Shown: piece by piece, positions 1-14,846 of the stretch
Numbering within the stretch: position 1 is the stretch's first letter
How the letters are laid out: each line of letters opens with the position of its first letter
Source of the DNA: an uncultured Paracoccaceae bacterium
GTDB lineage: Bacteria > Pseudomonadota > Alphaproteobacteria > Rhodobacterales > Rhodobacteraceae
DNA length: 64,000 nt
Assembly (NCBI GenBank): GCA_938005545.1
Contig: CALKXV010000009.1
Span: forward strand, 186,001-250,000
Reading direction: 5' to 3'
Notes under the pieces: model-generated
Told to the model about the DNA's origin: nothing
Seen by the model: only the letters and a program-made list of their open reading frames with translations
Database searches by the model: none
Program-made: the position numbers and the translations under genes

Positions 1-513
1 CGTTTGAAGGCTCAGTCAAAGGACTATCACTCGCTCGGTCACGCGGGCCACGTTATCCGGGGCCAGCCTGGCTGGGACGATATTCAGGGGCTGCGCGATC
101 TATGGGACGGACCGATGTTGGTCAAAGGCGTGCAGAAAGGCGAAGACGCCAAACGGCTTGTTGGTATGGGGATTGACGCCATTTGGGTTTCGAACCATTC
201 AGGCCGTCAATTTGACGGAGGGCCTGCCTCTATTTCCTGCTTGCCTGCGATCCGTGCGGCCGTGCCTGACACCCCTTTGGTGTTCGATAGTGGCGTGATG
301 GGCGGGCTCGACATCCTGCGCGCCCTTGCTTTAGGGGCTGACTTTGTCATGCTGGGCCGCGCGTTTCACTATGCGGTCGGTGCATTGGGCGAAAAAGGCC
401 CACCTCATCTGATCAAAATGCTGCGTGATGATATGGTGTCGAACATGGGCCAGATGGGCGCACGCACCTTGGGTGATCTCTCTGCTCGCCTTATCCCGGA
501 AACAATGCCTTAA
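1..513 (+). CDS. FMN-dependent alpha-hydroxy-acid (L-lactate) dehydrogenase, C-terminal part
   Basis: The gene enters from the left edge, so only about the last 170 residues are present. Members of this (beta/alpha)8-barrel flavoprotein family oxidise L-2-hydroxy acids, typically L-lactate to pyruvate, at the inner membrane. Visible are the segment LVKGVQKGEDAKRLVGMG, the catalytic His/Arg motif in VSNHSGRQFDGGPAS, and the FMN-phosphate-binding end of the barrel (FDSGVMGGLDILRALA, then GADFVMLGR). These are diagnostic of the LldD/glycolate-oxidase family. The substrate could be lactate, glycolate or another 2-hydroxy acid, and the missing N-terminus prevents a finer call. A pyruvate carboxylase gene follows nearby, which fits lactate use but does not prove it. 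Confidence 0.93.
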   Translation, partial: RLKAQSKDYHSLGHAGHVIRGQPGWDDIQGLRDLWDGPMLVKGVQKGEDAKRLVGMGIDAIWVSNHSGRQFDGGPASISCLPAIRAAVPDTPLVFDSGVMGGLDILRALALGADFVMLGRAFHYAVGALGEKGPPHLIKMLRDDMVSNMGQMGARTLGDLSARLIPETMP

Positions 514-565
514 ATCTGCCAGCTTTTCGGACGAACCTCCCGACCTGAGGGGATGGAGAAACGTT

Positions 566-733
566 ATGTCCGACAAAATTACCAAACGCTTGCGGCTGGT
601 CGACAAGGCCTTAAAAAGCAAGCCTAACGCCACGCCCGACTTCTCGGAAGACGACGATTATTTGGAACCTGTGGCCAAGTCCGACCCCAAAATGCTCCGT
701 TTTCTGTCAAGCCGCGCCACACCGTCTAAATAA
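566..733 (+). CDS. small charged hypothetical protein (55 aa)
   Basis: This ORF begins 52 bases after the lactate-dehydrogenase-type gene, with ATG at 566 preceded by a purine-rich GGGGATGGAG ribosome-binding site. The product is highly charged (N-terminal KITKRLRLVDKALKSK, then an acidic patch SEDDDYLEP) and has no signal peptide or membrane segment. I do not recognise a family. The good ribosome-binding site, sensible amino-acid composition and position at the end of the upstream operon suggest a real small gene. A longer in-frame extension upstream overlaps the lactate-dehydrogenase frame and looks like shadow sequence. Confidence 0.55.
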   Translation: MSDKITKRLRLVDKALKSKPNATPDFSEDDDYLEPVAKSDPKMLRFLSSRATPSK

Positions 734-737
734 CTGA

Positions 738-779
738 ATTTGCGGTAAATTCCCTAAACGACGTCCGCAAATGTCGTTT
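738..779 (+). other. two overlapping hairpins after the small gene, before pyc
   Basis: Two perfect inverted repeats interlock immediately after the small gene's stop codon. ATTTGCGG (738-745) pairs with CCGCAAAT (765-772), and AAACGAC (756-762) pairs with GTCGTTT (773-779). The second 3' arm abuts the first with no spacer, so both stems are unlikely to form together and they look mutually exclusive. The second ends in TTT and could be a weak intrinsic terminator of the upstream operon. A regulatory switch in the pyc leader is the alternative reading. Confidence 0.4.
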
Positions 780-943
780 CAAGTCGGCCGCCGCTCAGTT
801 TCGGGCAACTCTGGCGCATATCCGCAGAAATCATAACAGCCCCACTCCCCCATTCGCCTTAAGGCTCCCGCCTTATTTCTGTGATTGCTCATTCGGCCCG
901 TGACCGATAACACATGCTGCAACTGCGAAAAGAGGGTGTATCT

Positions 944-3900
944 ATGGCCGAGTTCAAAAAAATCCTGATTGCAAACCGTGGCGAAATCGCAATTCGAGTA
1001 ATGCGCGCCGCAAATGAACTTGGGAAACGAACGGTCGCGGTTTATGCCGAGGAAGACAAGCTTAGTCTGCATCGTTTTAAGGCTGATGAAGCCTATCTGA
1101 TCGGCAAGGGCTTGGGGCCGGTTGCTGCCTATCTGTCCATCGACGAGATCATCCGAGTTGCCGTGAATGCAGGCGCAGACGCCATTCACCCCGGTTATGG
1201 TTTGTTATCGGAAAACCCCGATCTGGTCGATGCCTGCACCAAAAACGGCATCACATTCATTGGCCCTAAAGCGGAAACCATGCGCTCGTTGGGTGACAAA
1301 GCCAGTGCGCGTCAGGTTGCGATCAAGGCTGGCGTTCCGGTCATCCCGGCAACCGACGTTCTGGGCGACGACATGAAAGAGATCGCCAAACAGGCGAAAG
1401 ACGTTGGTTATCCGCTGATGCTGAAAGCATCGTGGGGTGGCGGCGGTCGCGGCATGCGGCCCATCGGGTCAGAAGACGAATTAGAAGAAAAGGTGCTGGA
1501 AGGCCGCCGCGAAGCAGAAGCCGCGTTTGGCAATGGCGAAGGTTATCTTGAAAAGATGATCCTGCGTGCCCGCCACGTGGAAGTGCAAATCCTTGGGGAT
1601 TCACAAGGCAATATCTATCACCTCTGGGAACGCGACTGTTCGGTCCAACGTCGGAACCAAAAGGTCGTTGAACGCGCGCCCGCACCTTATCTGTCGGGCG
1701 CACAGCGCGAAAAAATTGCCAATCTTGGTAAAAAAATCGCCGAAGAGGTCGGCTATGAATGTGCGGGCACCATCGAATTCTTGATGGATATGGACAACGG
1801 CGAATTCTACTTCATCGAAGTAAACCCCCGAGTTCAGGTCGAACACACTGTCACCGAAGAAGTCACCGGCATTGATATTGTTCAGGCGCAAATCAAGATT
1901 GCCGAAGGAAAACCCTTGGTCGAAGCCACAGGCAAAGCTTCGCAATACGATGTCACGCTGAATGGCCACGCGATCCAGTGCCGGATCACAACCGAAGACC
2001 CGTCCAACAATTTCATCCCCGACTACGGTCGCATCACTGCTTACCGGGGTGCCACCGGCATGGGCATCCGTCTGGACGGCGGCACGGCCTATTCGGGCGC
2101 GGTCATCACGCGGTATTACGATTCACTTCTGGAAAAAGTCACCGCATGGGCCCCCACGCCCGAAGCCGCGATTGCCCGGATGGATCGTGCCTTGCGCGAA
2201 TTCCGTATCCGGGGTGTTTCGACCAACATCGCCTTTGTCGGAAATCTTTTGAAGCACCCAACGTTCTTATCCTATGAATACCACACCAAATTCATTGACG
2301 AAACGCCGGAACTGTTCGAATTCAAGGCCAACCGCGACCGCGCGACCCGGCTTCTGACATACCTTGCCGACGTCACTGTGAATGGCCACCCGGAAATCAA
2401 AGACCGCCCCCTGCCCCTGCCAAATCTGCACACGCCCGTGCCGCCGAAATTGCGGGAAAAGGCACCTAAGTCAGGCACCAAACACATCTTCGAAGCCGAA
2501 GGCCCAAAGGGCTTAGCCGATTGGATGTTGGCTCAAAAACAAGTGCTGATTACCGACACCACCATGCGCGATGGCCCGCAATCCCTGCTCGCCACCCGTA
2601 TGCGTTCGATTGATATGATCAATGTGGCCCCTGTTTATGCCGCCAATCTGCCGGAAATGTTCTCGATGGAATGTTGGGGCGGAGCGACATTTGATGTTGC
2701 TTATCGCTTCTTGCAGGAATGCCCATGGCAGCGGTTGCGGGATCTGCGGGCTGCTATGCCGAACCTTCTGACACAAATGCTGGTCAGGGGGTCTAATGGA
2801 GTTGGCTATACCAACTATCCTGACAACGTCGTCGAATTCTTCATCCAGCAGGCCGCCAACAGCGGAATGGATCTGTTCCGCGTCTTCGACCCTTTGAACT
2901 GGACCGAAAACATGCGCGTCGCGATGGACGCCGTTTTGGACACCGGCAAAATCCTTGAAGCTTCGATCTGTTACACCGGTGACATCCACGACCCAAATCG
3001 CGCCAAGTACGACCTGAAATATTATGTCGGCATGGCCAAAGAATTGCAAAAGGCAGGCACCCATATCTTGGGTCTGAAAGACATGGCCGGTCTTGTGAAA
3101 CCCGGTGCCGCCCGCGTTCTAGTGAAGGCATTGAAAGAAGAAACAGGCCTGCCCGTTCATTTCCACACCCATGACACGGCCGGTATTGCATGTGCCTCGA
3201 TTCTAGCTGCCGCCGAAGCGGGCGTGGACGCTGTTGATTGCGCGATGGATGCGTTTTCCGGCAACACGAGCCAAGCCACCCTTGGCACCGTTGTCGAAAG
3301 CCTGAAGGGCGATGATCGCGATACCGGGCTTGATATTTCGGCCATTCGCGAGATTTCCAATTACTGGGAAGCCGTCCGCCATCACTACGCCGCGTTCGAA
3401 ACCGGTCTGCAAGCCCCTGCATCGGAAGTCTACCTGCACGAAATGCCCGGCGGTCAATTCACCAACCTGAAAGCCCAAGCGCGCAGCCTCGGCCTTGAGG
3501 AACGCTGGCACGAAGTAGCTCAAACCTATGCCGACGTGAACCAGATGTTCGGCGACATCATCAAAGTGACGCCCACCTCGAAAGTTGTCGGTGACATGGC
3601 TCTTATGATGGTCAGCCAAGGGCTCACCACCGAAGAAGTCCTCGATCCTAATCGCGACGTTGCCTTCCCTGAAAGCGTGGTCGGCATGATGCGCGGTGAA
3701 ATCGGTCAACCCACGGGCGGCTGGCCCAAGGACATCCAGAAAAAAGTACTGAAGGGCGACAAACCTTTCACCAAACGCCCCGGTGCCGATCTGAAACCGG
3801 TAGATCTGGAAAAGACCCGCGCCGAGATCAATGCCAAATTCGACCAAGAATTCGACGATGAAGATTTGGCGGGTTATCTCATGTACCCCAAAGTTTTCGC

Positions 3901-4384
3901 CGATTACACTGCGCGCCACGACACCTATGGCCCTGTGCGCACCTTGCCGACGAACATCTACTTTTATGGCATGAAACCCGCTCAGGAAATCTCGGTCGAA
4001 ATCGACCCCGGCGTGACGCTTGAAATCCGCTTGCAAGCGATTGCCGACACCAATGCCGAAGGCGAAGCCAAGGTCTTTTTCGAACTGAATGGCCAGCCAC
4101 GCCAGATCCGCGTTCCCGATCGTTCGGTCTCGAATGTGGCAACAGCCCGGGCAAAAACTGATCCCGCCAACGACAACCATGTCGGGGCTCCAATGCCCGG
4201 CGTCGTCGCAACCATCGCCGCGCAAGAAGGCGCTCCTGTGAAACAAGGCGATCTGTTGCTGACCATCGAAGCCATGAAAATGGAAACTGGCATCCACGCA
4301 GATCGCGACGGCGTGATCAAAAAACTCCACGTAACGGCGGGCGCGCAGATCGACGCGAAAGACCTGCTGGTCGAATTTGAATAA
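944..4384 (+). CDS. pyc: pyruvate carboxylase
   Basis: This biotin-dependent enzyme carboxylates pyruvate to oxaloacetate using ATP and bicarbonate (anaplerosis, gluconeogenesis). At 1146 residues it has the normal single-chain length. In order it has a biotin carboxylase domain (starts FKKILIANRGEIAIRVMR, glycine loop SWGGGGRGMR), a carboxyltransferase barrel from about residue 530 (ITDTTMRDGPQSLLATR, and GLKDMAGL with the family's catalytic lysine), and a biotinyl carrier domain at the C-terminus with biotinyl-lysine K1112 in AMKME. I chose ATG 944 because AAAAGAGGG lies just upstream. An in-frame ATG at 914 would add ten unconserved residues. It appears monocistronic, with 314 bases before the next gene. 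Confidence 0.98.
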   Translation: MAEFKKILIANRGEIAIRVMRAANELGKRTVAVYAEEDKLSLHRFKADEAYLIGKGLGPVAAYLSIDEIIRVAVNAGADAIHPGYGLLSENPDLVDACTKNGITFIGPKAETMRSLGDKASARQVAIKAGVPVIPATDVLGDDMKEIAKQAKDVGYPLMLKASWGGGGRGMRPIGSEDELEEKVLEGRREAEAAFGNGEGYLEKMILRARHVEVQILGDSQGNIYHLWERDCSVQRRNQKVVERAPAPYLSGAQREKIANLGKKIAEEVGYECAGTIEFLMDMDNGEFYFIEVNPRVQVEHTVTEEVTGIDIVQAQIKIAEGKPLVEATGKASQYDVTLNGHAIQCRITTEDPSNNFIPDYGRITAYRGATGMGIRLDGGTAYSGAVITRYYDSLLEKVTAWAPTPEAAIARMDRALREFRIRGVSTNIAFVGNLLKHPTFLSYEYHTKFIDETPELFEFKANRDRATRLLTYLADVTVNGHPEIKDRPLPLPNLHTPVPPKLREKAPKSGTKHIFEAEGPKGLADWMLAQKQVLITDTTMRDGPQSLLATRMRSIDMINVAPVYAANLPEMFSMECWGGATFDVAYRFLQECPWQRLRDLRAAMPNLLTQMLVRGSNGVGYTNYPDNVVEFFIQQAANSGMDLFRVFDPLNWTENMRVAMDAVLDTGKILEASICYTGDIHDPNRAKYDLKYYVGMAKELQKAGTHILGLKDMAGLVKPGAARVLVKALKEETGLPVHFHTHDTAGIACASILAAAEAGVDAVDCAMDAFSGNTSQATLGTVVESLKGDDRDTGLDISAIREISNYWEAVRHHYAAFETGLQAPASEVYLHEMPGGQFTNLKAQARSLGLEERWHEVAQTYADVNQMFGDIIKVTPTSKVVGDMALMMVSQGLTTEEVLDPNRDVAFPESVVGMMRGEIGQPTGGWPKDIQKKVLKGDKPFTKRPGADLKPVDLEKTRAEINAKFDQEFDDEDLAGYLMYPKVFADYTARHDTYGPVRTLPTNIYFYGMKPAQEISVEIDPGVTLEIRLQAIADTNAEGEAKVFFELNGQPRQIRVPDRSVSNVATARAKTDPANDNHVGAPMPGVVATIAAQEGAPVKQGDLLLTIEAMKMETGIHADRDGVIKKLHVTAGAQIDAKDLLVEFE

Positions 4385-4698
4385 TTCGTTCAACTGCTTC
4401 GCGACCTAACCGACCGTTGCTTGGCTGTGTATCGGCAAATTTGTGCTTTTTAGAAGGTACTTTCTCAAACGGTTTTGTTTTCATTCGTGTCGAGTAGCTT
4501 TGCACTGATCATCCGAGCGATGCTTGCGAGACGCAGTTGGCTTTTTTTGTTGAGATTGTTGCGCAACGAGGAAATTGATCACGGAAGGATGGCCTTCGCG
4601 GGGTTGATCTGCTATCGCGCGGGTGGTTTGGTCGGACAAATCCGAAGCGGCTCCGCTGGCAGAAAAGCCCCAACCACGGACGGTGGGAAAGCAGGCGC
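4385..4698. other. intergenic region between pyc and the acyl-AMP ligase operon
   Basis: This 314-base gap has no convincing ORF on either strand. It contains AT-rich stretches suited to a promoter for the downstream operon and a T-run (GGCTTTTTTT near 4540), but no clear stem precedes the run, so I cannot call a terminator. A short hairpin AGCGG-CT-CCGCT lies near 4650. Confidence 0.5.
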
Positions 4699-6225
4699 GT
4701 GCAGATTAATTGGCCCGAAGACTTTGGCTTCATAAGCAAAATCCATCCGGACGGAGTGCGGGTTTCTTCTGATGTGATTGCAAGCTATGCATCTTCGATT
4801 GCGGACCTATTGAAGACGCAAGGTGTTAAACCCGGCGAGCGCGTGGCCCTCTGGCTGACGGACGGGCCTGATAAAATTGCGGCAGTTTTGGGATGTTGGA
4901 TGACGGGGGCTGTCTTTTGCGTCCTGCCCTCCTTTGCGGGCAACACAAAAACCGAGCGATCCCAAGCCCGCATTCAGGGTGTTTTTTCGGTCCTTGATCC
5001 GAAGCTATTGTTGCAAAGCGCCGGTAGTGAATTGCCGCCCGAAGCCTATGGAAATGTCTCGTCAGTAACGCTCGGCGGCCACCTAACATCGCCTGCAGAA
5101 ACCACCGACATCCGCCCAAAGCTTGCAGAGCGGAACGCCGATGATCTGGCCTTCATTCAGTTCACATCCGGCAGCACCGGCGGCAAGGCCAAGGGCGCGG
5201 AAGTACGATTTCGCCAGCTTGAGGCGAACCTTGAGGCGTTGGCCAAAAGGACAGAACTGTCGGCGAAGGATCACATGGTGTCCTGGGCCCCGATGTATCA
5301 TGACATGGGGTTGATGGCGGTTTTGTTGGCGTTTCGTGCGGGGGCCGATCTGACATTGATGGAAACCGATCATTTCGTGCGTCGACCGTCAGCTTGGCTA
5401 GAGGCCATATCCAAGTGCAAAGGCACGGTCACGACGGCGCCGCCGACCGCCCTAAAACTTTTAACCCGACGACGCGCGGTTGACGTTGACTTGTCTTCCT
5501 TGCGCTATGCTTGGATCGGTGGCGAAGCGGTGTTTCCCAAAGTGGCATCGGAATTTGAAGACGCCTATGCTCAGGCGGGTCTTGCGCGTGGCGTAATCCA
5601 GCCGACTTATGGCATGGCGGAAACTGTCGTGGGCATTTCCTGTGGCGTGCCGGGTACGGAATGGATCACGCGAAATGGGGTGATTTCCTGCGGGAAAACC
5701 CTTGATGGGATGGAGGTGCAGATCCAAAGCGGTGACGGTGCCGCTCTACCGGATGGAACCGAAGGCAAAATCATGACCCGCGGAGCGTCGGTAATTGACG
5801 GTTACTTGGGTCTTGAACGGTTTGAGAAGGGTAGCTGGTATGACACCGGCGACCTTGGATTTTTGGACGACGGCTATCTGTTCGTGACGGGACGGATGAA
5901 AGACTTGTTGAAGCGCGGTGCGGAAAGTTATCCCGCATCACTGGTTGAAGCCATCGCCGAAATGGCACTGGAATTGCGCACGGGACGGGTCGCGGCGTTC
6001 GCGAACTTCCGCGCGGATCTTGGCAAAGAAGAGATTGTTCTTTTGGTCGAAAGCCGAGCTTGGGATGATAGTCAAACGCGAGTGGTTGCTTCGGCAGTGC
6101 TTGGTGAACTGGGATTGCAAGTGGACGTCATCAGACCGGCAAAAGGCGGGCGCTTACCACGCACATCCAGCGGAAAAATTATGCGTCAGATGACAGCAAA
6201 GCAATATCTGGAAGGAACAATATGA
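4699..6225 (+). CDS. fatty-acyl-AMP ligase (FAAL-type, ANL superfamily)
   Basis: Predicted to activate a fatty acid as its acyl-adenylate and pass it to an acyl carrier protein rather than CoA. The 508-residue protein has the ANL P-loop FTSGSTGGKAKG (residues 155-166), the FAAL/FadD-like APMYHDMGLMA, YGMAET, the ATP-binding YDTGDLGF, the hinge KDLLKRGAESYP and the C-terminal catalytic lysine region PRTSSGKIMR. The start is GTG at 4699, since no ATG precedes the conserved region. Its stop overlaps the ATG of a free ACP gene (ATGA), which strongly suggests that ACP is the acceptor. A plain acyl-CoA ligase is the alternative, but the motifs and neighbour favour FAAL. Confidence 0.85.
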   Translation: MQINWPEDFGFISKIHPDGVRVSSDVIASYASSIADLLKTQGVKPGERVALWLTDGPDKIAAVLGCWMTGAVFCVLPSFAGNTKTERSQARIQGVFSVLDPKLLLQSAGSELPPEAYGNVSSVTLGGHLTSPAETTDIRPKLAERNADDLAFIQFTSGSTGGKAKGAEVRFRQLEANLEALAKRTELSAKDHMVSWAPMYHDMGLMAVLLAFRAGADLTLMETDHFVRRPSAWLEAISKCKGTVTTAPPTALKLLTRRRAVDVDLSSLRYAWIGGEAVFPKVASEFEDAYAQAGLARGVIQPTYGMAETVVGISCGVPGTEWITRNGVISCGKTLDGMEVQIQSGDGAALPDGTEGKIMTRGASVIDGYLGLERFEKGSWYDTGDLGFLDDGYLFVTGRMKDLLKRGAESYPASLVEAIAEMALELRTGRVAAFANFRADLGKEEIVLLVESRAWDDSQTRVVASAVLGELGLQVDVIRPAKGGRLPRTSSGKIMRQMTAKQYLEGTI

Positions 6226-6506
6226 CAGGCGAAACAGAAACGTGGACGGCAGATCGCGTGATCCAGATCATGCGCGATCTGGCTCGGGAAGATGATCTGC
6301 CAAACCATTTGGTGACCGGCGAAATCACAGGCAAAGACACCGTTGAGACACTTGGCATCGATTCACTTGGGGGCGCTTATTTGATCGAGCGGCTTGAAGA
6401 TACAACTGGCGTTCAGATGCCCGATGATTTTCTGGATCTGACGGACGACATCGACCGGATCGCCGCCCGGCTAACTGATCTCATCAAAAGTGCGGGGTCG
6501 ACATGA
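6222..6506 (+). CDS. stand-alone acyl carrier protein
   Basis: A 94-residue acidic carrier protein with the phosphopantetheine attachment motif GIDSLGG, where Ser48 is the expected 4'-phosphopantetheine site. It is longer than housekeeping AcpP (about 78 residues) and shows little similarity to it beyond the motif, so it is probably dedicated. The gene overlaps the ligase upstream and the methyltransferase downstream, each by four bases, implying translational coupling. By context it would hold the acyl chain loaded by the ligase and present it to the methyltransferase. A PPTase acting on it is not in the window. Confidence 0.9.
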   Translation: MTGETETWTADRVIQIMRDLAREDDLPNHLVTGEITGKDTVETLGIDSLGGAYLIERLEDTTGVQMPDDFLDLTDDIDRIAARLTDLIKSAGST

Positions 6507-7363
6507 CCCAATCCACAAACGCCGGAGCTTCGCAAGAAGCCATCGAGTTTCACTACGACATGCCCGCCGATTTCTTTGCGCTGTGGCTGGGTGAAAGCAT
6601 GACCTATACGGCCGCGCGTTATGCGGAACCTGGCATGTCGATGGACGAAGCACAGCTGAACAAGATCAACTATCACCTCGATTCCGCTCGTGTTTCTGAA
6701 GGCGGACGGATGTTGGACATTGGTTGCGGATGGGGAACTTTGCTAAAGACCGCTGTTACCAAACGCGGCGCGGCTGCGGCTCATGGTCTGACGCTTAGCC
6801 CACTTCAGAACAAATATATTACCGGTCTTGGCATCCCGAATGTCAGCGCCGAATTGAAAAGTTACGAAGATTATGAACCCGATGCGCCGTTTTCATCGAT
6901 TGTAAGTGTGGGCGCGTTCGAACACTTTGTGCAGCCTGAAAGCACCAAAGAAGAACGCCACGATACTTATTCTGCTTTGTTCGAGCGTGTTGCGAGATGG
7001 CTGGAACCCGGCGGTCAGTTTTCTTTGCAAACCATGGCATGGGGCGACGCCAATGCGACCGAACGCAACCTCATCAAAATCCATGACATTTTTCCTGAAA
7101 GCGACTTGCCCGAGATTGCCGAGGTGATCCACTCCGCCCATCCTTATCTGGAATTGGTGACGATGGAGAACCGGCCACAGGATTACGGCGATACACTGGC
7201 CGCTTGGGCCGACGGTTTGAAGGCAAACAAGGATCGCGCCATCAAAATCGTCGGACCTGAGCGGTACAAGTTTTTCCTTGATAGCTGCAAGGGTGGCGCA
7301 CTTTTGTATCGGCGCCGACGCTTTTATCTATGTCGCTTTGTGTTCAAACATCGCGGCCGCTAA
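6503..7363 (+). CDS. cyclopropane/mycolic-acid-type SAM methyltransferase
   Basis: The 286-residue product matches in length the mycobacterial cyclopropane/mycolic-acid methyltransferases (about 287 residues) rather than E. coli Cfa (about 380). Visible are the N-terminal YDMPADFFALWLGESMTYT, the SAM-binding LDIGCGWG (71-78), GLTLSPLQ, and GAFEHF, whose glutamate is expected to hold the active-site bicarbonate. The lipid-binding stretch IHDIFPESDLP is also present. Family enzymes transfer a methylene or methyl group to a double bond of an acyl chain. Here the substrate is probably an acyl-ACP made by the two upstream genes. The C-terminus carries an arginine cluster (YRRRR) but shows no frameshift. 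The gene ends four bases before a convergent gene. Confidence 0.88.
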   Translation: MTQSTNAGASQEAIEFHYDMPADFFALWLGESMTYTAARYAEPGMSMDEAQLNKINYHLDSARVSEGGRMLDIGCGWGTLLKTAVTKRGAAAAHGLTLSPLQNKYITGLGIPNVSAELKSYEDYEPDAPFSSIVSVGAFEHFVQPESTKEERHDTYSALFERVARWLEPGGQFSLQTMAWGDANATERNLIKIHDIFPESDLPEIAEVIHSAHPYLELVTMENRPQDYGDTLAAWADGLKANKDRAIKIVGPERYKFFLDSCKGGALLYRRRRFYLCRFVFKHRGR

Positions 7364-7367
7364 CGTG

Positions 7368-8069
7368 CTAGACTGACCGGGTGATGCCTCCGTCAACGCG
7401 GATGTTTTGCCCGGTAATATAGGCTCCGCCCTCGCCCGCCAAAAATGCAACCGTTGCACCGATTTCGTTTCGCGACGATCCATAGCGGCCCATAGGGATT
7501 TGCGTGCGGAATTCTTCTTTCTCCGGCAGGCTATCGATAAATCCCGGCAACACGTTGTTCATTCGGATGTTTTCGGCGGCGTAAGCGTCGGCGAAAAGTT
7601 TTGTGAAACTCGCGAGACCAGCCCGCATCACACCACTCGTCGGGAAAACAGGGCTCGGTTCGAATGCAGCGAAAGTGGAGATGTTGATGATGGCACCGCC
7701 GCCTTGGCTTTGCATTATTGGAGTGACCAAACGGGTCGGGCGTACGGCGTTCAGAAAGTAAACTTCCATCCCTTCGTGCCAATCGTCATCGGTCAATTCA
7801 AGGATCGGTGCACGTGGGCCATGCCCCGCCGAATTGACCAAAACGTCGACGCGGCCCCAGTGCGACATTGCGGCATCGACCAGTTTTTGTAGATCGGCGT
7901 CGGAACGGTTCGTACCAGTAATACCGACGCCGCCCAATTCCTTTGCCAGGGCTTTGCCCTTGCCTGAAGATGACAGAATGCCTACTTTGAAGCCATCTGC
8001 CGCCAATGCACGCGCGCTATCCGCGCCCATGCCGCTACCTCCGGCGGTGATCAAAGCAACTTTGGTCAT
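7368..8069 (-). CDS. SDR-family oxidoreductase with non-canonical active site
   Basis: A 233-residue Rossmann protein of the classical SDR fold: cofactor motif ITAGGSGMG, the NSAG segment (79-82), and the C-terminal ITGQNIRVDGG. The usual catalytic Tyr-x-x-x-Lys is replaced. In the segment VFPTSGVMRAG the Tyr position is Phe142 and the Lys position is Gly146. It may therefore use a different mechanism or act as a non-classical enzyme. It is the last gene of the minus-strand hyu cluster, 12 bases after the aldolase. Its role is unknown, though reduction or oxidation of an aldolase product is a reasonable guess. Confidence 0.85.
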   Translation of the reverse strand: MTKVALITAGGSGMGADSARALAADGFKVGILSSSGKGKALAKELGGVGITGTNRSDADLQKLVDAAMSHWGRVDVLVNSAGHGPRAPILELTDDDWHEGMEVYFLNAVRPTRLVTPIMQSQGGGAIINISTFAAFEPSPVFPTSGVMRAGLASFTKLFADAYAAENIRMNNVLPGFIDSLPEKEEFRTQIPMGRYGSSRNEIGATVAFLAGEGGAYITGQNIRVDGGITRSV

Positions 8070-8081
8070 AGTGTTTCCTTT

Positions 8082-8855
8082 TCAATCCATCTTGTCTTTG
8101 ACATTGGCCAAGAGCGCATCAGTTCCGCGAGCCAAAATCGACGTGTCGGTGCCGCAAGCCACAAAGCTGAAACCTTCATTCAACAGTTCAGCGGCAAACC
8201 CCGCATCCAACACCAACGTTCCAACCGGCATGCCCTTTGCAATCAGTTTTTGCGCAGCCGGTTTAATCAATTCCCAAACTTCCGGGTCCATGGGCTTTCC
8301 CATCTTTCCGATGTCTGCTGAAATGTCGCCGGGGCCAAAGAAGATGCCGTCGACCCCATCGACGCCGGCGATTGCCTCGGCCTGTTCAACGGCTGCGCGG
8401 GTTTCCAATTGCAACAGAACTGCCGTTTCATCCTCCACGCGAGCAACGTAATCCGTGACCCGTCCGAATTTCGTCGCACGTGTCGACCCAGCTGCCCCAC
8501 GAATACCACGCGGTGGATATCGGGTTGCCGCGACGGCGGCTTCGGCTTCGGCAACGGATTGGATCATCGGAAATAGAATGCCCGGTGCGCCAATATCCAA
8601 CACGCGTTTCACGGCAATTGGATCATTCCATTCGACGCGCACAATCGCTGTTGTTTCCGTCCCTGCAAAGGCCTGTAACTGACCGATAATGCTAAAATAA
8701 TCGTTCGGGCTGTGCTCCATGTCCAAAAGCACCCAATGGTATCCGGCAGGCGCAATCACATCAGCCACAAAATTATTCGACAAGGTCACCCATAACCCGA
8801 TCTGTTTTTCGCCTGCGGCAATCGCGTGGGTAAATGGATTTGGTTCCAGCTTCAT
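8082..8855 (-). CDS. HpcH/HpaI aldolase family protein
   Basis: A 257-residue class II, metal-dependent aldolase related to 4-hydroxy-2-oxoheptanedioate and 2-dehydro-3-deoxyglucarate aldolases, which cleave 2-oxo-4-hydroxy acids to pyruvate (or oxaloacetate) and an aldehyde. Seen are GLWVTLSNNFVADVIA, the barrel strand VLLDMEHSPND, the metal-ligand region VLLQLETRAAVEQAEAI, and GVDGIFFGPGDISAD. Its start codon shares one base with the stop of the upstream FAD oxidase gene (TGATG), so the two are translationally coupled. The substrate is not deducible. A keto-deoxy sugar acid would suit the surrounding sugar genes. Confidence 0.9.
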   Translation of the reverse strand: MKLEPNPFTHAIAAGEKQIGLWVTLSNNFVADVIAPAGYHWVLLDMEHSPNDYFSIIGQLQAFAGTETTAIVRVEWNDPIAVKRVLDIGAPGILFPMIQSVAEAEAAVAATRYPPRGIRGAAGSTRATKFGRVTDYVARVEDETAVLLQLETRAAVEQAEAIAGVDGVDGIFFGPGDISADIGKMGKPMDPEVWELIKPAAQKLIAKGMPVGTLVLDAGFAAELLNEGFSFVACGTDTSILARGTDALLANVKDKMD

Positions 8856-10063
8856 CAGATGATTGCCTTTTCGATTATGGGTTCATTGCGGACCAGTCGG
8901 TCATATCCAAATTGCGACAGATCGAGCGACCGGAATTCACCATACGTCAGCCATTCCGCAGTGCCTCGGCCCATGGCAGGGGATTGTTGAAGACCGTGCC
9001 CGGAAAACCCGTTGAGGAAAATGAAGTTTTCGATCTGATCATGCGGCCCGACAATTGCGTTTTGATCGAATGTATTAAATGCATAATGCCCCGCCCATTC
9101 GGTAACGACCTTAATTGCTTCAAACTGCGGGATACGTGTCGCGATAATTGGCCAGACATGATTTTCCCACCGATTGAAATCCATCGCGAAGTCATCGAAA
9201 TCGACCGCTGGATCTGGATCAGCGGGACACCCCGCCAAATACGTTTTGGGGCCATCCTGACGGAAATGAACGCCCGAGGGATCAATCGTCAGCGGCAAAT
9301 CTTGGTCCAAAGGTTGTTCGGCACTGAAAATCCAGGTGAAGCGTTTTCGAGGTTCCACCGGTAATTCGATACCCGCAAATGCGGCTGTGCGTGCGCCACG
9401 CGGCCCCGAGGCATTCACGACTTGACCGCACGAAACCACATCGCCGGAGGCCAATGTGACGCTGTCCACTCGAGTACCGTTTGCGTTCTTGGTGATCGCC
9501 ACAACTTCGTTGTCAATGTATTCGACACCCCGTTCGCGCGCAGAACGTCGCCACCAATCGAACACTGTACCGCCGTCCCAGTACCCTTCGTCTTTCAGGT
9601 TGATCGAGCCCAAAACAATATCGTCGACAGCATAAAACGGATATCGTGCGGTGATTTCTTCTGCCGATAGAAGCTCGGTCTCGGCACCAGCCGCCAATTG
9701 AATTTTCTGGTTTTCACGGAGTGTGTCGGCGAAACCTTCATCGTCGGCAAGATACATATATCCATAGTTCTGGATGTGCTGTTCGGGCACACGGTCGTCA
9801 CCGATGTTTGCGCGCAGGTTTTTGACAAACTCGGCCGCGAACTGGCTGATTTCTATGTTTAGGCTGTTGGAAAACTGCTGACGCATGCAAGAATTGGTGT
9901 GTGCAGTCGAACACTTCTCGTAGCTTGAATCCCGTTCCACCACCAAGACTGAGCCATTAAAATCGTCCAGCTCTGTTAAGAACCAAGCCGTCGATGAGCC
10001 CATGATCGCACCGCCAATGATCACAATGTCATAGCTTCGGGCGGTTGGGTTCTTGTGTGGCAT
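8855..10063 (-). CDS. FAD-dependent oxidoreductase (DAO/glycine-oxidase family)
   Basis: A 402-residue flavoprotein of the D-amino-acid-oxidase/sarcosine-oxidase fold. The N-terminal dinucleotide motif is IVIIGGAIMGSSTAWFL, the mid-domain reads VVNASGPRGARTAAFAG, and the C-terminal FAD motif is FIFLNGFSGHGLQQSPAMGRG. ATG 10063 is preferred because it overlaps the hyuB stop (TGATG). A GTG one codon upstream is also possible. The family oxidises amines or amino acids, releasing imines. Next to the hydantoinase genes it may act on the amino acid or N-alkyl amino acid released by ring opening, which is inference from context. Confidence 0.88.
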   Translation of the reverse strand: MPHKNPTARSYDIVIIGGAIMGSSTAWFLTELDDFNGSVLVVERDSSYEKCSTAHTNSCMRQQFSNSLNIEISQFAAEFVKNLRANIGDDRVPEQHIQNYGYMYLADDEGFADTLRENQKIQLAAGAETELLSAEEITARYPFYAVDDIVLGSINLKDEGYWDGGTVFDWWRRSARERGVEYIDNEVVAITKNANGTRVDSVTLASGDVVSCGQVVNASGPRGARTAAFAGIELPVEPRKRFTWIFSAEQPLDQDLPLTIDPSGVHFRQDGPKTYLAGCPADPDPAVDFDDFAMDFNRWENHVWPIIATRIPQFEAIKVVTEWAGHYAFNTFDQNAIVGPHDQIENFIFLNGFSGHGLQQSPAMGRGTAEWLTYGEFRSLDLSQFGYDRLVRNEPIIEKAII

Positions 10064-11769
10064 CACACCGGTTCTCCTCTGCGCACTGCGTCTTCCACAT
10101 CTGCGATCTCGGATTGTGAAAGTCCATAGTACTCGGCTGCGTGATCGGCCGATATATATCCCCGCGCCAAATCCCGCTTGACGTTATCCGGATCGCGCAT
10201 CTTTGGATCGCCGTAACCAGCACCGCCTGGAAAAGCCATCACTACTTTGCGTCCATGGGGCACAAATTGCTTACCCTTGGCCTGCATTTCACTGCCATCG
10301 TCTCGCGCAATTGTAGTCTTTCCACCAGCATGACCGCCACGCCGACCCCGAGCGGGATGCTGGCTGCGATCGAACATGGCTTGGATATCAAATTCATGTC
10401 CATCCATCGCACTGACTTCCATATACTGCCCTAAACCGCCGCGCATTCTTCCCGCACCGCCGCTGTCAGGGCGGAGTTCTTTTCGCCAGATAATGACAGG
10501 GCCCGCGTGTTCCGTCGCTTCAATCGGCATTGTCATCACGCCTGAAGGGAAGGCCGTTGCGTTCAAGCCATCGTGCTGTGGGCGCGCGCCAGATCCACCC
10601 GAATTAAACATCAGCACTTCGGACCGTCGCGCGTCTTCTGGCGCGGGTGCATCGGTACGTGGACGTAACGAAACCTGGAAGTTGCACAAACATCCGGCCC
10701 CTTCGGCGGGGACCACATCGGGGACGATCTTGTCGAAGGCATCAAACACGGCGTCTGGCACAAAATGCCCGATGATGTGACGCAAAGCGACCGGTGCGGG
10801 ATGCTGTGCGTTGACGATCGTGTTGGCTGGCGCAGTAACTTCGAAGGGCGCGAGTGAGGCTGCGTTGTTCGGAATCTCGGGCGCGATGGCAACTTTCAAG
10901 GCGTAGCAGGCGTAGGCCTTGGTATAGACCATCGGACAGTTTATGCCTTTTTTGTCAACGGGTGACGTGCCAGAAAAATCAGTTACGATCCGATCCTCAA
11001 GAACGCTGACTTTCACTTTGAGCGTAATCGGAACATCAAAACCGTCGACAGTCATTTCACCTGTCGCCTCTTTTCGGGGCAACGCATTTATGCGCTCAAT
11101 CGTCGCGCGGCGAGAGTTTTCCAGAATGAATTCGGCCACACCGTCAAGATCGGTTAGCCCAAACTCCTTCATCATATCCGTCAGTCGTCGATGGCCAATT
11201 TCGTTACATGTCGCGAGCGCGTAGACATCCCCGATCAATTGATCTGGTTCGCGAACATTGCCACGAATAATCCGGGTCAGGGTTTCATCCACTTCACCAC
11301 GTTCGGCAAATTTCATGATCGGGATGTACAATCCTTCTTCATAGACACTGTGGGCATCTGCGCCAAAGCCACGCCCACCGATATCGACAATATGGGCAGT
11401 ACAGGCAAAAAATCCGATCAGCGTACCGTTGAAAAATGACGGTGTGACCATGGTGATATCGTGTAGATGGCCTGTGCCTTCCCATGGATCGTTGGTGATA
11501 TAGACATCGCCTTCGAACATGTTTTGCCGCCCGATCCGGCGGATGAAATGTGCCACGGCATCTGCCATCGCGTTGACGTGCCCCGGCGTGCCTGTGACGG
11601 CTTGCGCCAGCATTCTTCCCCGAGGGTCGTAAACACCCGCCGACAGATCACCGGCCTCTCGAACAGAAGTTGAAAAGGCTGTTCGCACAAGGGCTTGCGC
11701 TTGTTCTTCAACGACCGAGATCAAGCGGTTCCACATCACTTGGAAAGCAACGTTTGAAGTCTTTGCCAT
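10063..11769 (-). CDS. hyuB: hydantoinase B / 5-oxoprolinase beta-type subunit
   Basis: A 568-residue HyuB-family subunit, the partner of HyuA in ATP-dependent opening of hydantoins or 5-oxoproline and in the related acetone-carboxylase family. Characteristic segments are TAFSTSVREAGDLSAGVYD, GTPGHVNAMADAV, VYITNDPWEGTGHLHDI, and the C-terminal GGRGGHAGGKTTI and FPGGAGYGDP. The gene follows hyuA by three bases and overlaps the FAD oxidase gene. The substrate within the family cannot be told from sequence alone. Hydantoin, 5-oxoproline, creatinine-derived N-methylhydantoin and acetone-like ketones are all possible. Confidence 0.93.
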   Translation of the reverse strand: MAKTSNVAFQVMWNRLISVVEEQAQALVRTAFSTSVREAGDLSAGVYDPRGRMLAQAVTGTPGHVNAMADAVAHFIRRIGRQNMFEGDVYITNDPWEGTGHLHDITMVTPSFFNGTLIGFFACTAHIVDIGGRGFGADAHSVYEEGLYIPIMKFAERGEVDETLTRIIRGNVREPDQLIGDVYALATCNEIGHRRLTDMMKEFGLTDLDGVAEFILENSRRATIERINALPRKEATGEMTVDGFDVPITLKVKVSVLEDRIVTDFSGTSPVDKKGINCPMVYTKAYACYALKVAIAPEIPNNAASLAPFEVTAPANTIVNAQHPAPVALRHIIGHFVPDAVFDAFDKIVPDVVPAEGAGCLCNFQVSLRPRTDAPAPEDARRSEVLMFNSGGSGARPQHDGLNATAFPSGVMTMPIEATEHAGPVIIWRKELRPDSGGAGRMRGGLGQYMEVSAMDGHEFDIQAMFDRSQHPARGRRGGHAGGKTTIARDDGSEMQAKGKQFVPHGRKVVMAFPGGAGYGDPKMRDPDNVKRDLARGYISADHAAEYYGLSQSEIADVEDAVRRGEPV

Positions 11770-11772
11770 GAC

Positions 11773-13851
11773 TTAATCCCCTTTCAAAATATCGATGCAG
11801 CCGTCCGGCTGACATAGGGCCGTGCGCCCGGCGGGTACAATTATGGTCGTTTCATTTTCGGTAATTACAGCTGGGCCTTTAACGGATCGACCGGGGCTTA
11901 AAGCGTCACGCGATATAACCTGAGCATCGAGAAATTTTGTACTGACCGGATCGAAAACCTGCCGAACGCCTTCAGCCGAAGCGGGCTCGGCATGGGCTGC
12001 AATCTGAACGGGTGCAACCGTTTCCGGCGGCGTCGTTGCATTCACCGACCAAACCGTGATCTCGACGTCCATGCCTGCAACGGTGCGTCCGAACAGCTTT
12101 GCGTAGTCTTCTTCGAACCGCGCGAGGAACGTGTCAGCGTCAGGCGACATTGCTTGGATCTCGGTTAGTCTGATCGGGATTTCCCACCCCTGCCCGGTAT
12201 ATCGCATATAAACTTTGAATTCGGAGAGTACGTCGCTCTCGGCGTCGCAAGAGCGTACGAAACCAGTTGCTTCATTTTGCAGTTCACTCAATATTTTCTT
12301 GATCGCGCCTGCGTCAAAGTCGGACAGTTTCATATAGACGGATCGGTTGGCCTCGAAACTGAACGGGGCGCGTAAGAACCCAATAGCCGAACCAACACCC
12401 GCACCGGGAGGTACTATCAAACGCTCGACACCCAGCTTTTCGCAAAGCCGACCGGCGTGCAAAGGGGCGGCACCGCCGAAAGCGATCATCGTGTATTCCG
12501 ACAGATCCTCGCCATTTTCGACTGCATGAACGCGGGCGGCATTTGCCATGTTTTCGTCAACAACTTCGGATACTCCGAATGCCGCTTCGCTGGCATCCAT
12601 TTCCAGTGGGATGCCAACATGGTCTTTCAAAGCCGATTTGGCGCTTTCGGGATGTAGAGGGATCGTGCCGCCCGCAAAGTTTTCGGGATCAAGTTTGCCC
12701 AACACCAAATCGGCGTCCGTCACACCAGGACGTTCGCCACCCCGACCGTAACAAGCGGGGCCCGGTTCCGAACCAGCGCTTTCTGGCCCAACCCGGATTT
12801 GTCGCAGCGCATCGACGTGGGCCAGGCTTCCGCCACCGGCGCCAATTTCCACCATATCAATGACGGGGATAGAAATCGGCATGCCGGAGCCTTTTTTAAA
12901 CCGATAGGTTCGAGCCACTTCAAACACACGGGCCGTCTTGGGCGTTTGGTCTTTGATCAGACAAATTTTGGCTGTCGTCCCGCCCATGTCGAATGACAAA
13001 ACTTTGTCGATACCATAGCGAGCCGCGATGTGAGCCGCAAAAACCGCGCCGCCGGCGGGACCTGATTCCACCAACCGAACCGGAAACTCTGCCGCGTTCT
13101 GGATTGAGATTATGCCGCCGCCGGAGTGCATCAGGAAAATTCGGCAATCGACACCTTCACCTTTGAGCCGGTCTTCCAAACGTCCGAGGTACGACGCCAT
13201 CAACGGTTTGATGTAGGCGTTGGCGACAACTGTATTGAACCGTTCGTATTCTCGCATTTGCGGACTGACTTCGGATGAGATTGATACGGCCACTTCGGGC
13301 AGTTTTTCCGCCAAAACGTCGCGCACCAATTCTTCGTGAGACGGGTTCAAGTAGGAATGGATCAACCCAACTGCGACCGAGTTGAAACCTGCTTCGGCAA
13401 TCCGTTCGACGACGCGTTCCACATCGGAACGTTCGAGGGGGATCATCACGTCGCCTTTCGCATTCACGCGTTCTTCTACGGTGAACCGCATCTGGCGTGG
13501 TAACAAAGGCTCGGGCAGTTCAAGGTTCAGGTCGTATTGTTCAAACCGGGATTCCGTCCGCATTTCAATAACATCACGGAACCCTTGGGTCGTGATCAGA
13601 GCCGTTTTCGCACCGCGCCTTTCAATCAGCGCATTGGTCGCAAGGGTTGTTCCGTGGATGATTTGCCCAATTGCGCTTGGGGCCACGTCAGCCTTTTCGC
13701 AGACTTGGTGCATGCCTTCGATAATCGCGTTCTCTGGCGCGGAATAGGTCGTCAGCACTTTCGTTGAAAACGAAGCGCCGTCACTTTCAAGAACCACATC
13801 CGTAAATGTGCCGCCAATATCCACGCCGAGGCGAACCGAGCTAGACTTCAT
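11773..13851 (-). CDS. hyuA: hydantoinase A / 5-oxoprolinase alpha-type subunit
   Basis: A 692-residue ATP-binding HyuA-family subunit. The N-terminus carries the actin-fold phosphate motif GVDIGGTFTDVV. Also seen are HGTTLATNALIERRGAKTA, the glycine-rich VESGPAGGAVFAA, LSFDMGGTTAK, and the C-terminal GPAVITENETTIIVP. With HyuB it is expected to phosphorylate and open a lactam or imide ring in the cytoplasm. It is the first gene of a five-gene operon (hyuA, hyuB, oxidase, aldolase, SDR), preceded by an AT-rich inverted repeat and a LysR gene on the same strand, which is presumably its regulator. Confidence 0.94.
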   Translation of the reverse strand: MKSSSVRLGVDIGGTFTDVVLESDGASFSTKVLTTYSAPENAIIEGMHQVCEKADVAPSAIGQIIHGTTLATNALIERRGAKTALITTQGFRDVIEMRTESRFEQYDLNLELPEPLLPRQMRFTVEERVNAKGDVMIPLERSDVERVVERIAEAGFNSVAVGLIHSYLNPSHEELVRDVLAEKLPEVAVSISSEVSPQMREYERFNTVVANAYIKPLMASYLGRLEDRLKGEGVDCRIFLMHSGGGIISIQNAAEFPVRLVESGPAGGAVFAAHIAARYGIDKVLSFDMGGTTAKICLIKDQTPKTARVFEVARTYRFKKGSGMPISIPVIDMVEIGAGGGSLAHVDALRQIRVGPESAGSEPGPACYGRGGERPGVTDADLVLGKLDPENFAGGTIPLHPESAKSALKDHVGIPLEMDASEAAFGVSEVVDENMANAARVHAVENGEDLSEYTMIAFGGAAPLHAGRLCEKLGVERLIVPPGAGVGSAIGFLRAPFSFEANRSVYMKLSDFDAGAIKKILSELQNEATGFVRSCDAESDVLSEFKVYMRYTGQGWEIPIRLTEIQAMSPDADTFLARFEEDYAKLFGRTVAGMDVEITVWSVNATTPPETVAPVQIAAHAEPASAEGVRQVFDPVSTKFLDAQVISRDALSPGRSVKGPAVITENETTIIVPAGRTALCQPDGCIDILKGD

Positions 13852-13905
13852 CGATTAGAATCCTTGTTGCTGCCGGTTACTGTCGAATGCACTCATGCAA
13901 AAATC

Positions 13906-13937
13906 AAATTGATAAAATTTTTGTGGTTGATCAATTT
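13906..13937 (-). promoter_or_regulatory. probable LysR operator upstream of hyuA
   Basis: A perfect 8-base inverted repeat, AAATTGAT (13906-13913) and ATCAATTT (13930-13937), sits in a conspicuously AT-rich 89-base gap between the LysR gene and hyuA. LysR-type sites are interrupted dyads of this kind. The position 55-86 bases upstream of the hyuA start codon suits activation of hyuA. The assignment to this particular LysR protein is inferred from adjacency. Confidence 0.5.
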
Positions 13938-13940
13938 TAT

Positions 13941-14846
13941 TTATCCTACCTCGGTGCGAGAAATTTGTTGGGCCAGTTTCGCTGCGTCGCGCACAAAACC
14001 TGGCACGCGGGCGTCGTCAAAGCGTGCGAAGACTTCCAATCGTTTGGGTGACCACTTGCATCGGACTTCGCTGAGTTTACCCCGTTCGATGGCGTCGGAT
14101 ACAATCTGGCGTGGCAATAATGAAATCCCCATACCGTCGATGGCCATCGGCACACAGGACGCCAAACTGTTCGAATAACCGATCCGATCCGTCGGCAAGC
14201 CTTCAGCTTTAGCGGCCTTCAACAATTCGGACGATGCACCGGCATGGCGTGCATGGGTCAGGATTGAGTGATCGAACAACGTGCGAAGGTTTGGCTTTGG
14301 TCCAAGCATTTTCGCCATCTCGGGCGTTGCCACCCAAGCGTATTTAGATTGCCCCAATGGCAAAGTTCCTGACATCGCTTGTGTGAACGGCCCGGTTTGA
14401 AGCGCCAGATCGAGTTGATGCGCGATCAGTTGGCGCTCGATTTCGCGTGACAGGTTCACATCCAACTCGACACTGACTGATGAGTATTCCGCATTGAAGG
14501 CGCGCAGAAATTTATGAAGCCAGGTGCAGGCGACCAACTCGGTGACACCCAACCGCAAGCGTTCTTCGATAAGGTCTTTGCGATCAGCGGTTTCAAGAAA
14601 CCGTTCAGCAGACAAAAGCGCATTGCGGGCTGCGGGTAACAGTTTCGTTCCAGTTTCAGTCAGGCGGACAGAGCCTGCATCGCGGTACAGCAGGACAACA
14701 TCCAGCGTTCGTTCCAATGCGGACATGCGGGCGGAGATGTTTGGCTGTGTTGTTCCAAGCGCGTCAGCTGCCTGCCGGAACGTGCCGCGATCTACGACAA
14801 AGACGAAGGCTTCCAGCTGTTTTAGGGTAACGCGACTTTTTATCAT
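13941..14846 (-). CDS. LysR-family transcriptional regulator
   Basis: A 301-residue LTTR with a typical N-terminal winged helix-turn-helix (LKQLEAFVFVVDRGTFRQAA, then TTQPNISARMSALE) and a periplasmic-binding-protein-like effector domain. It is transcribed in the same direction as the hyu genes and lies directly upstream of them, unlike the common divergent arrangement. An AT-rich inverted repeat lies between it and hyuA. The effector is probably an intermediate of the hyu pathway. A hairpin precedes it, separating it from the SDR upstream. Confidence 0.93.
   Translation of the reverse strand: MIKSRVTLKQLEAFVFVVDRGTFRQAADALGTTQPNISARMSALERTLDVVLLYRDAGSVRLTETGTKLLPAARNALLSAERFLETADRKDLIEERLRLGVTELVACTWLHKFLRAFNAEYSSVSVELDVNLSREIERQLIAHQLDLALQTGPFTQAMSGTLPLGQSKYAWVATPEMAKMLGPKPNLRTLFDHSILTHARHAGASSELLKAAKAEGLPTDRIGYSNSLASCVPMAIDGMGISLLPRQIVSDAIERGKLSEVRCKWSPKRLEVFARFDDARVPGFVRDAAKLAQQISRTEVG

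Follow-up and report, generated by a model that had tools for sequence, protein, structure and literature searches.

A ligase, a carrier protein and a CMAS-type methyltransferase as a candidate acyl-ACP methylation cassette in Rhodobacteraceae

In mycobactin formation, MbtM, MbtL, and MbtN load the acyl tail and dehydrogenate it. This trio consists of a fatty-acyl-AMP ligase (FAAL), an acyl carrier protein (ACP), and one enzyme that modifies the acyl-ACP. The known FAAL/ACP cassettes equip a fatty acid with a single chemical handle, as in the alkynes and polyynes. In the jamABC and polyyne clusters, according to the accessible parts of two papers (PMC8406139, PMC11837247), the chain is loaded by a free-standing FAAL onto a free-standing ACP and is tailored there; the former also describes a jamABC-type alkyne cassette (FAAL/desaturase/ACP) in Proteobacteria. 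Such clusters are composed of a FAAL, one or more desaturases, an ACP, and a thioesterase/rubredoxin or P450. The subject here is a three-gene operon in a 64,000-nucleotide stretch of DNA (the window) from an uncultured Paracoccaceae bacterium (assembly GCA_938005545.1, contig CALKXV010000009.1, positions 186,001 to 250,000). It encodes a FAAL-like acyl-AMP ligase, a stand-alone ACP, and an S-adenosylmethionine (SAM) methyltransferase (MT) of the CMAS/mycolic type. The operon is probably a self-contained cassette for acyl-ACP methylation, in which the ligase would load the ACP and the MT would methylate the bound chain.

Compared to the jamABC and polyyne clusters, the window cassette has a different tailoring enzyme, the CMAS-type MT. 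No desaturase was seen beside it, either by eye or with a crude His-box pattern (unvalidated on a known desaturase), in the window or in the five close loci described below, so it is not classed as a jamABC alkyne cassette. The likeness to MbtM/MbtL/MbtN extends to the ligase, which the MbtM model matches over residues 49-505 (230 bits). The difference is that the window cassette is predicted to methylate rather than dehydrogenate, and no siderophore genes were seen by eye to adjoin it. The word “methyltransferase” does not occur in the accessible text of PMC8406139; in that of PMC11837247 it occurs once, for another enzyme, and “cyclopropan” does not occur. No description of an ACP-FAAL-CMAS methyltransferase cassette was found in the open-access literature searched, which is not proof of absence.

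The ligase and ACP genes, as well as the ACP and MT genes, overlap by four bases. The original prediction had described three genes joined in this way, and the open reading frame (ORF) coordinates, the Pfam matches, and the repetition of the order in five close loci confirm it. These further loci (L009-L013) were found by scanning GTDB contigs with the MT, and all are Rhodobacteraceae-type records. The order ligase-ACP-MT is identical in the window and in 5/5 of them, with junctions that overlap or almost overlap; the ACP of L013 was masked by an antisense ORF and was recovered by direct translation. The MTs of these loci are about 70-90% identical to the window MT, and the ligases 62-80% identical to the window ligase. 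The window ACP matches PF00550 (PP-binding) with 26.5 bits (cut-off 20.8) and carries the phosphopantetheine motif GIDSLG, and the serine of GxDS is present in 6/6 close copies.

The linkage of the MT to an ACP reaches well beyond these close loci. A set of 23 MT relatives was assembled from the window, the five close loci, 10 genome loci, and seven plasmid loci. The plasmid loci come from a tblastn search with the MT alone, which matched 59 records; of the 30 that were listed, seven were examined, chosen for their high rank or their organism rather than at random. In 15 of the 23 relatives, the gene immediately before the MT, on the same strand, encodes an ACP, and the cluster includes a FAAL. 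Not all 15 are independent: one Tistrella genus supplies three of them, and the two from Sphingobium are near-copies of each other. Six of the 15 come from the plasmid search; the seventh plasmid locus, from Streptomyces (L063), has neither partner. By comparison, neither an ACP nor a FAAL was found in any of 32 Cfa-type control loci (the 30 best PF02353 loci of 58 class genomes plus L001 and L008), within flanks of 0.15-1.5 kb. This contrast, together with the missing N-terminal stretch of Cfa, argues that the MT would act on an ACP-bound chain, and it lends support to the originally proposed route from ligase to dedicated ACP to MT.

The model used for ACP detection was built on 13 ACPs, including most of the positives, and the E-values for those are inflated. 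Independent support comes from the Pfam PP-binding model, which scored above its cut-off in 8/8 distant ACPs tested. In addition, four of the six positive plasmid loci are annotated “acyl carrier protein” in their records (L064 is called hypothetical and L062 is unannotated). A tree was built from 51 of 71 rows, leaving out 15 viral rows, the fragment L038, L035, L091, and two Tistrella near-copies. In this tree, 20 relatives are split from 31 Cfa-type rows by a branch with 100/99 support. The ACP+FAAL label changes three times among the 20 relatives, a number as low as this being reached in 2 of 500 shuffles. The bootstrap support was not yet stable, and L063 forms a long branch.

The MT itself matches the CMAS family PF02353 with 174 bits (cut-off 27) and the mycolic methyltransferase model NF040660 with 134 bits, under the curated cut-off of 390. 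Its best match in the PDB is CmaA2 (1kpi), with an E-value of 1.8e-34 for the single sequence and 3.1e-42 for a six-row profile, followed by other mycolic methyltransferases, including PcaA, and Cfa enzymes. The same structure was the top Foldseek match of an AlphaFold2 model of the MT. Both this model and that of the ligase were weak (mean pLDDT 65.4 and 66.7; input alignments of six rows), so the former was used for the fold only and the latter not at all. In the window MT, 16 residues precede the HYD motif, compared to 108-208 in the 32 Cfa-type controls (with mechanical ORF starts), which indicates that the N-terminal domain of Cfa is missing. In this, the MT resembles the mycolic methyltransferases (CmaA1/2, PcaA, MmaA4/Hma), which have a single-domain CMAS fold. 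It differs from them in sequence, with 23-28% identity in the Foldseek alignments, and they operate in the FAS-II/mycolate pathway. Cfa synthase shares its Pfam family with the MT but has the N-terminal domain, keeps the His and Cys discussed below, and lies on the opposite side of the 100/99 branch.

Five residues, C35, I136, E140, H167, and Y232, are what we take to be the bicarbonate site of CmaA1 (numbering checked on the CmaA1 alignment). The MT has A37, V136, E140, Q176, and Y228 at these positions. This means that the Glu and the Tyr are retained, whereas the Cys is replaced by Ala (6/6 close copies) and the His by Gln (22 of the 23 relatives). By profile the MT is a member of the CMAS family, but judged by these residues it departs from the cyclopropane synthases. 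Gln also occupies the H167 alignment position in the solved hydroxymycolate synthase MmaA4/Hma, which converts its carbocation to a methyl alcohol, as stated in the accessible part of PMC8708032. The two substitutions and the Gln shared with MmaA4 point to an outcome other than a cyclopropane, and the product would more probably, though this is said with less assurance, be a methyl-branched, methylene, or hydroxy-methyl chain. The original prediction of a cyclopropane-type modification has become doubtful, since two of the five presumed site residues are changed. A true cyclopropane, formed on an ACP-bound unsaturated chain after the same loading route, is rather unlikely for the same reason, although the CMAS family score, the presence of the synthases CmaA2 and PcaA among the closest solved relatives, and the retained Glu140 and Tyr228 all speak for it.

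The proposed methylation could proceed as follows. The ligase would adenylate a free fatty acid and transfer it onto the ACP's phosphopantetheine arm, as its family and the neighboring genes suggest. The MT would then methylate a double bond in the chain held by the ACP, with SAM as the donor, in line with its fold, its missing Cfa N terminus, and the ACP-MT linkage. As no desaturase was seen beside the genes, the alkene would probably be supplied by common unsaturated fatty acids, for example cis-vaccenate, which is typical of such bacteria. The resulting cation would perhaps end in one of the three chains named above rather than in a cyclopropane. Release would take place in trans, by a thioesterase or acyltransferase encoded elsewhere in the genome, since no release gene is linked to the operon. 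The cassette may, in sum, make a modified lipid. The N-acyl alanine methyl esters of roseobacters were considered as a product and set aside, as nothing connects them to the operon; the accessible part of PMC11580390 states that candidate synthase genes for them have not been found so far.

The case for the loading step rests on the ligase. It matches PF00501 (AMP-binding) with 192 bits, and its closest match in the PDB is the FAAL of E. coli (EcFAAL; 3pbk, E 4.6e-54). The best NCBIfam match is PRK09192, “fatty acyl-AMP ligase” (269 bits, curated cut-off 600), followed by PRK07768, “long-chain-fatty-acid--CoA ligase” (267 bits), and then by MbtM. All three scores are far under the curated cut-offs, and the FAALs of distant clusters, tested likewise, also fall below the curated FAAL cut-off. 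The motifs TSGSTGG, YHDMGL, TGD, and a C-terminal PRTSSGK are present, the first and last of them invariant in 6/6 close copies, as expected for an adenylation fold with its C-terminal Lys. The FAAL hallmarks used for comparison (W224, P226, M231, F279, the FAAL-specific helix, and the insertion) were taken from the accessible part of PMC8460268. Three of them, W224, P226, and M231 of EcFAAL, are conserved as W196, P198, and M203, and 4/8 positions are identical in the helix stretch T252-P259, as far as sequence alone can tell. The ligase is expected to form acyl-ACP because, according to the accessible part of the same paper, rejection of CoA by FAALs depends more on pocket elements, several of which are kept here, than on the insertion. 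The FAAL-type matches and several hallmarks favor its assignment as a fatty-acyl-AMP ligase, but with the FAAL-specific insertion missing, it is not a textbook FAAL.

A number of observations weigh against acyl-ACP methylation as set out above. In the ligase, the FAAL-specific insertion is absent from 6/6 close copies, whereas 9/9 distant FAALs have 17-49 additional residues here (21-23 in seven of them). The position of EcFAAL F279 is occupied by Thr250, and the second-best NCBIfam model bears the name of a CoA ligase. Within the DNA available around the MT, seven of the 23 relatives (L027, L028, L029, L030, L031, L035, and L063) have neither an ACP nor a FAAL, and these seven include the closest outgroups to the window clade, first L027 with L030 and then L028. 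An ACP substrate is therefore not a rule across the wider MT clade. The control flanks are long enough to reveal an ACP lying up to 30 bases away, whereas a more distant FAAL would escape notice. In the active site, Gln at the H167 position is also found in 10 of the 32 Cfa-type controls, and the Cys is retained in seven of the 23 relatives, including the desaturase-bearing clusters L032, L059, L060, and L062, so these residues alone would not fix the product. Lastly, no release gene lies within the operon or is linked to it.

The ACP and FAAL partners were either lost in the outgroups or gained anew by the window clade. A separate recruitment would fit the window ligase, which shares 24-31% identity with the FAALs of the distant clusters but not their insertion. 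Nine of the 10 Gln-bearing controls have EAVG instead of EHVG, and we suspect these to be UfaM-like methylases; the remaining one (L068) has EHVG. The MT of L035 has an in-frame stop near its N terminus.

One could also consider that the ACP carries an aryl, amino, or hydroxy acid and that the MT performs O-, N-, or alpha-carbon methylation. The altered active site would suit this, plant N-methyltransferases share the MT fold at low similarity, and the ligase matches an amino-acid adenylation model, though more weakly (155 bits). However, the top matches of the ligase are fatty-acid ligase models and FAAL structures, and acyl desaturases and LuxI occur in the distant clusters, which makes a non-fatty acid clearly unlikely. 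Family members of the Cfa type act on phospholipid, and the window MT could do the same, with the FAAL and ACP being a neighboring pair for fatty-acid salvage. The close outgroups without ACP or FAAL agree with this, but the MT has no Cfa N-terminal domain, the linkage is kept in 6/6 close loci, and the same genome carries a separate full-length Cfa-type gene (L001) with the usual His, so there is little to recommend it. An equally slim chance attaches to an acyl-CoA ligase in an operon for lipid catabolism, its ACP serving another partner, which would explain the missing insertion, the Thr, and the PRK07768 match but runs counter to the retained W224, M231, and part of the helix stretch, to the overlap of the ACP and ligase genes, and to the ranking of pocket elements above the insertion in the accessible part of PMC8460268.

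Clusters of ACP, MT, and FAAL with related MTs are present in Alpha- and Betaproteobacteria. The original prediction held that such a route would be unusual outside actinobacteria, a view at odds with these clusters and with the proteobacterial alkyne cassette of PMC8406139 (accessible part). The acyl-lipid genes of the distant clusters (desaturase, P450, thioesterase, and LuxI) were counted in favor of acyl-ACP methylation. On plasmids of Thalassospira marina (Alphaproteobacteria) and Pseudonocardia alni (Actinomycetota), the order is desaturase-ACP-MT-P450-thioesterase-FAAL, with gene contents taken from the record annotation and thioesterases from Pfam. In an unannotated record of Rhodococcus opacus, desaturase-ACP-MT-P450 is followed by a frame without a Pfam match and then the FAAL. 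The shared arrangement of these three plasmid loci (L058, L059, and L062) probably represents a lipid pathway common to two phyla, unmatched to a known product. A Tistrella cluster (L032:7454-14003) reads desaturase-ACP-MT-FAAL-acyl-CoA dehydrogenase-crotonase-like protein, and the Tistrella mobilis cluster sits on a 1.13 Mb plasmid. A conjugative plasmid of Polaromonas carries a FAAL, an insertion sequence (IS) element, desaturase-ACP-MT-desaturase, and two ketosynthase genes.

Two Sphingobium plasmids have the order LuxI-ACP-MT-FAAL (L061:6884-10764 and L064:6878-10639). The LuxI-type gene matches PF00765 with 89 and 86 bits, respectively, and the gene preceding it has only weak, sub-cut-off helix-turn-helix matches. 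The arrangement suggests that an acyl-homoserine lactone synthase is provided here with a dedicated source of modified acyl-ACP.

Taken together, the clusters suggest a scattered, portable “methyl-tagging” cassette of ACP, Gln-type CMAS MT, and FAAL that would feed modified acyl chains to differing acceptors, with a chemistry ending in methyl, methylene, or hydroxy-methyl. We put this forward tentatively, at somewhat less than an even chance, and as far as we have found, such a cassette is so far undescribed. If true, the acceptors would be a LuxI-type synthase in Sphingobium, ketosynthases in Polaromonas, and, in the window organism, an acceptor not linked to the cassette, with release by thioesterase in Thalassospira and Pseudonocardia; the Sphingobium LuxI would make chain-methylated acyl-homoserine lactones. 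A methylating version of the FAAL/ACP cassettes would be a compact three-gene tool for making branched or otherwise modified acyl-ACP. It would also offer a natural test of how CMAS chemistry responds to a change from His to Gln. Where surveys score FAAL+desaturase+ACP as an alkyne cassette, their counts may take in clusters whose double bond is destined for methylation.

The cassette occurs rarely and patchily, as would suit an accessory function that is gained and lost. At an E-value of 1e-40 or better, the MT is matched in 5 of 394 genomes of the family, and the six-row MT profile finds 10 of 385 genomes of the class and 2 of 398 of the phylum at E 1e-40, the window's own genome being included each time. 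Four of the five family genomes have a full-length MT. In the fifth (G390), the MT at L038:2568-3394 is broken: its two halves, with 49% and 68% identity, lie in different frames, and there is one in-frame TAG; the contig terminates inside the MT, and any upstream partners would fall outside the available sequence. Viral contigs hold 19 loci of distant MT relatives (25-36% identity), and no ACP or FAAL was found in the 15 of these 19 entered in the table of loci.

Two loci among the 23 relatives have other surroundings. In L036:9186-10438, a more distant MT is directly followed by an ACP gene (PF00550, 41 bits), the only relative with its ACP solely downstream, and no FAAL was seen there. The closest outgroup MT, in L027:898-6390 (with L030), adjoins a PilZ + methyltransferase-domain protein and an MMPL-family transporter.

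The host genome, which is 98.84% complete, has no match to the condensation domain of nonribosomal peptide synthetases (NRPS). It has four ketosynthase matches, three full ones in frames of 412-454 aa and a weak partial one in a frame of 398 aa, so its ketosynthases are of fatty-acid-synthase size only. No polyketide synthase (PKS) or NRPS genes were seen by eye among the ORFs at 1-14846 of the window. The original remark that no such synthase accompanies the operon holds for these ORFs and, for the domains searched, genome-wide. In another carrier genome (G213), a ketosynthase lies in a frame of 2159 aa on a different contig from its cassette. The host has two thioesterase-family matches, both on contigs other than that of the cassette. 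One is a stand-alone PF00975 thioesterase (L105:263-2244) that overlaps a FemAB-like/GNAT gene and is a possible release enzyme. The host also has two LuxI-type genes on other contigs, one in a LuxR-LuxI-looking pair (L095). LuxI-type genes occur in 4/4 cassette carriers searched but also in 87 of 100 family genomes, so their presence in carriers says nothing, and a quorum-sensing link in the window host was not retained.

Table 1. The operon and its neighbors in the window.
Feature	Position	Strand	Remarks
FAAL-like acyl-AMP ligase	4699-6225	+	508 aa, GTG start; ORF and Pfam
Stand-alone ACP	6222-6506	+	94 aa; ORF and Pfam
CMAS/mycolic-type SAM MT	6503-7363	+	286 aa; ORF and Pfam
Intergenic gap upstream of ligase	4385-4698		follows pyruvate carboxylase
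Pyruvate carboxylase	914-4384		upstream neighbor of cassette
SDR gene	7368-8069	-	downstream neighbor of cassette

Flanking genes vary among the close loci within the stretch available, some flanks being short (those of L010 are only about 280 and 235 bases). Within these limits, neither the SDR gene nor the pyruvate carboxylase has a counterpart adjoining the cassette in the five close loci. Only L009, from the same genus, has the downstream hydantoinase-type genes of the window, and it has no pyruvate carboxylase upstream. A DUF374 protein lies 97 bases upstream in L012, the locus of Phaeobacter marinintestinus UB-M7, but was not seen in the other close loci, and it was dropped as a linked partner. 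A consensus scan of 4300-7500 gave no sigma-70-like promoter site, versus 1.5 expected, and no Rfam match was found in 4000-8000. In the same consensus scan, nine terminator-like sites were seen versus 4.0 expected, mostly within genes. The GC content of the operon genes (52.8-55.5%) is close to that of the window (53.9%), so there is no base-composition signature of recent transfer, and a recent foreign origin was rejected on this ground. In loci L010 and L011, the operon GC is higher than that of the short flanks.

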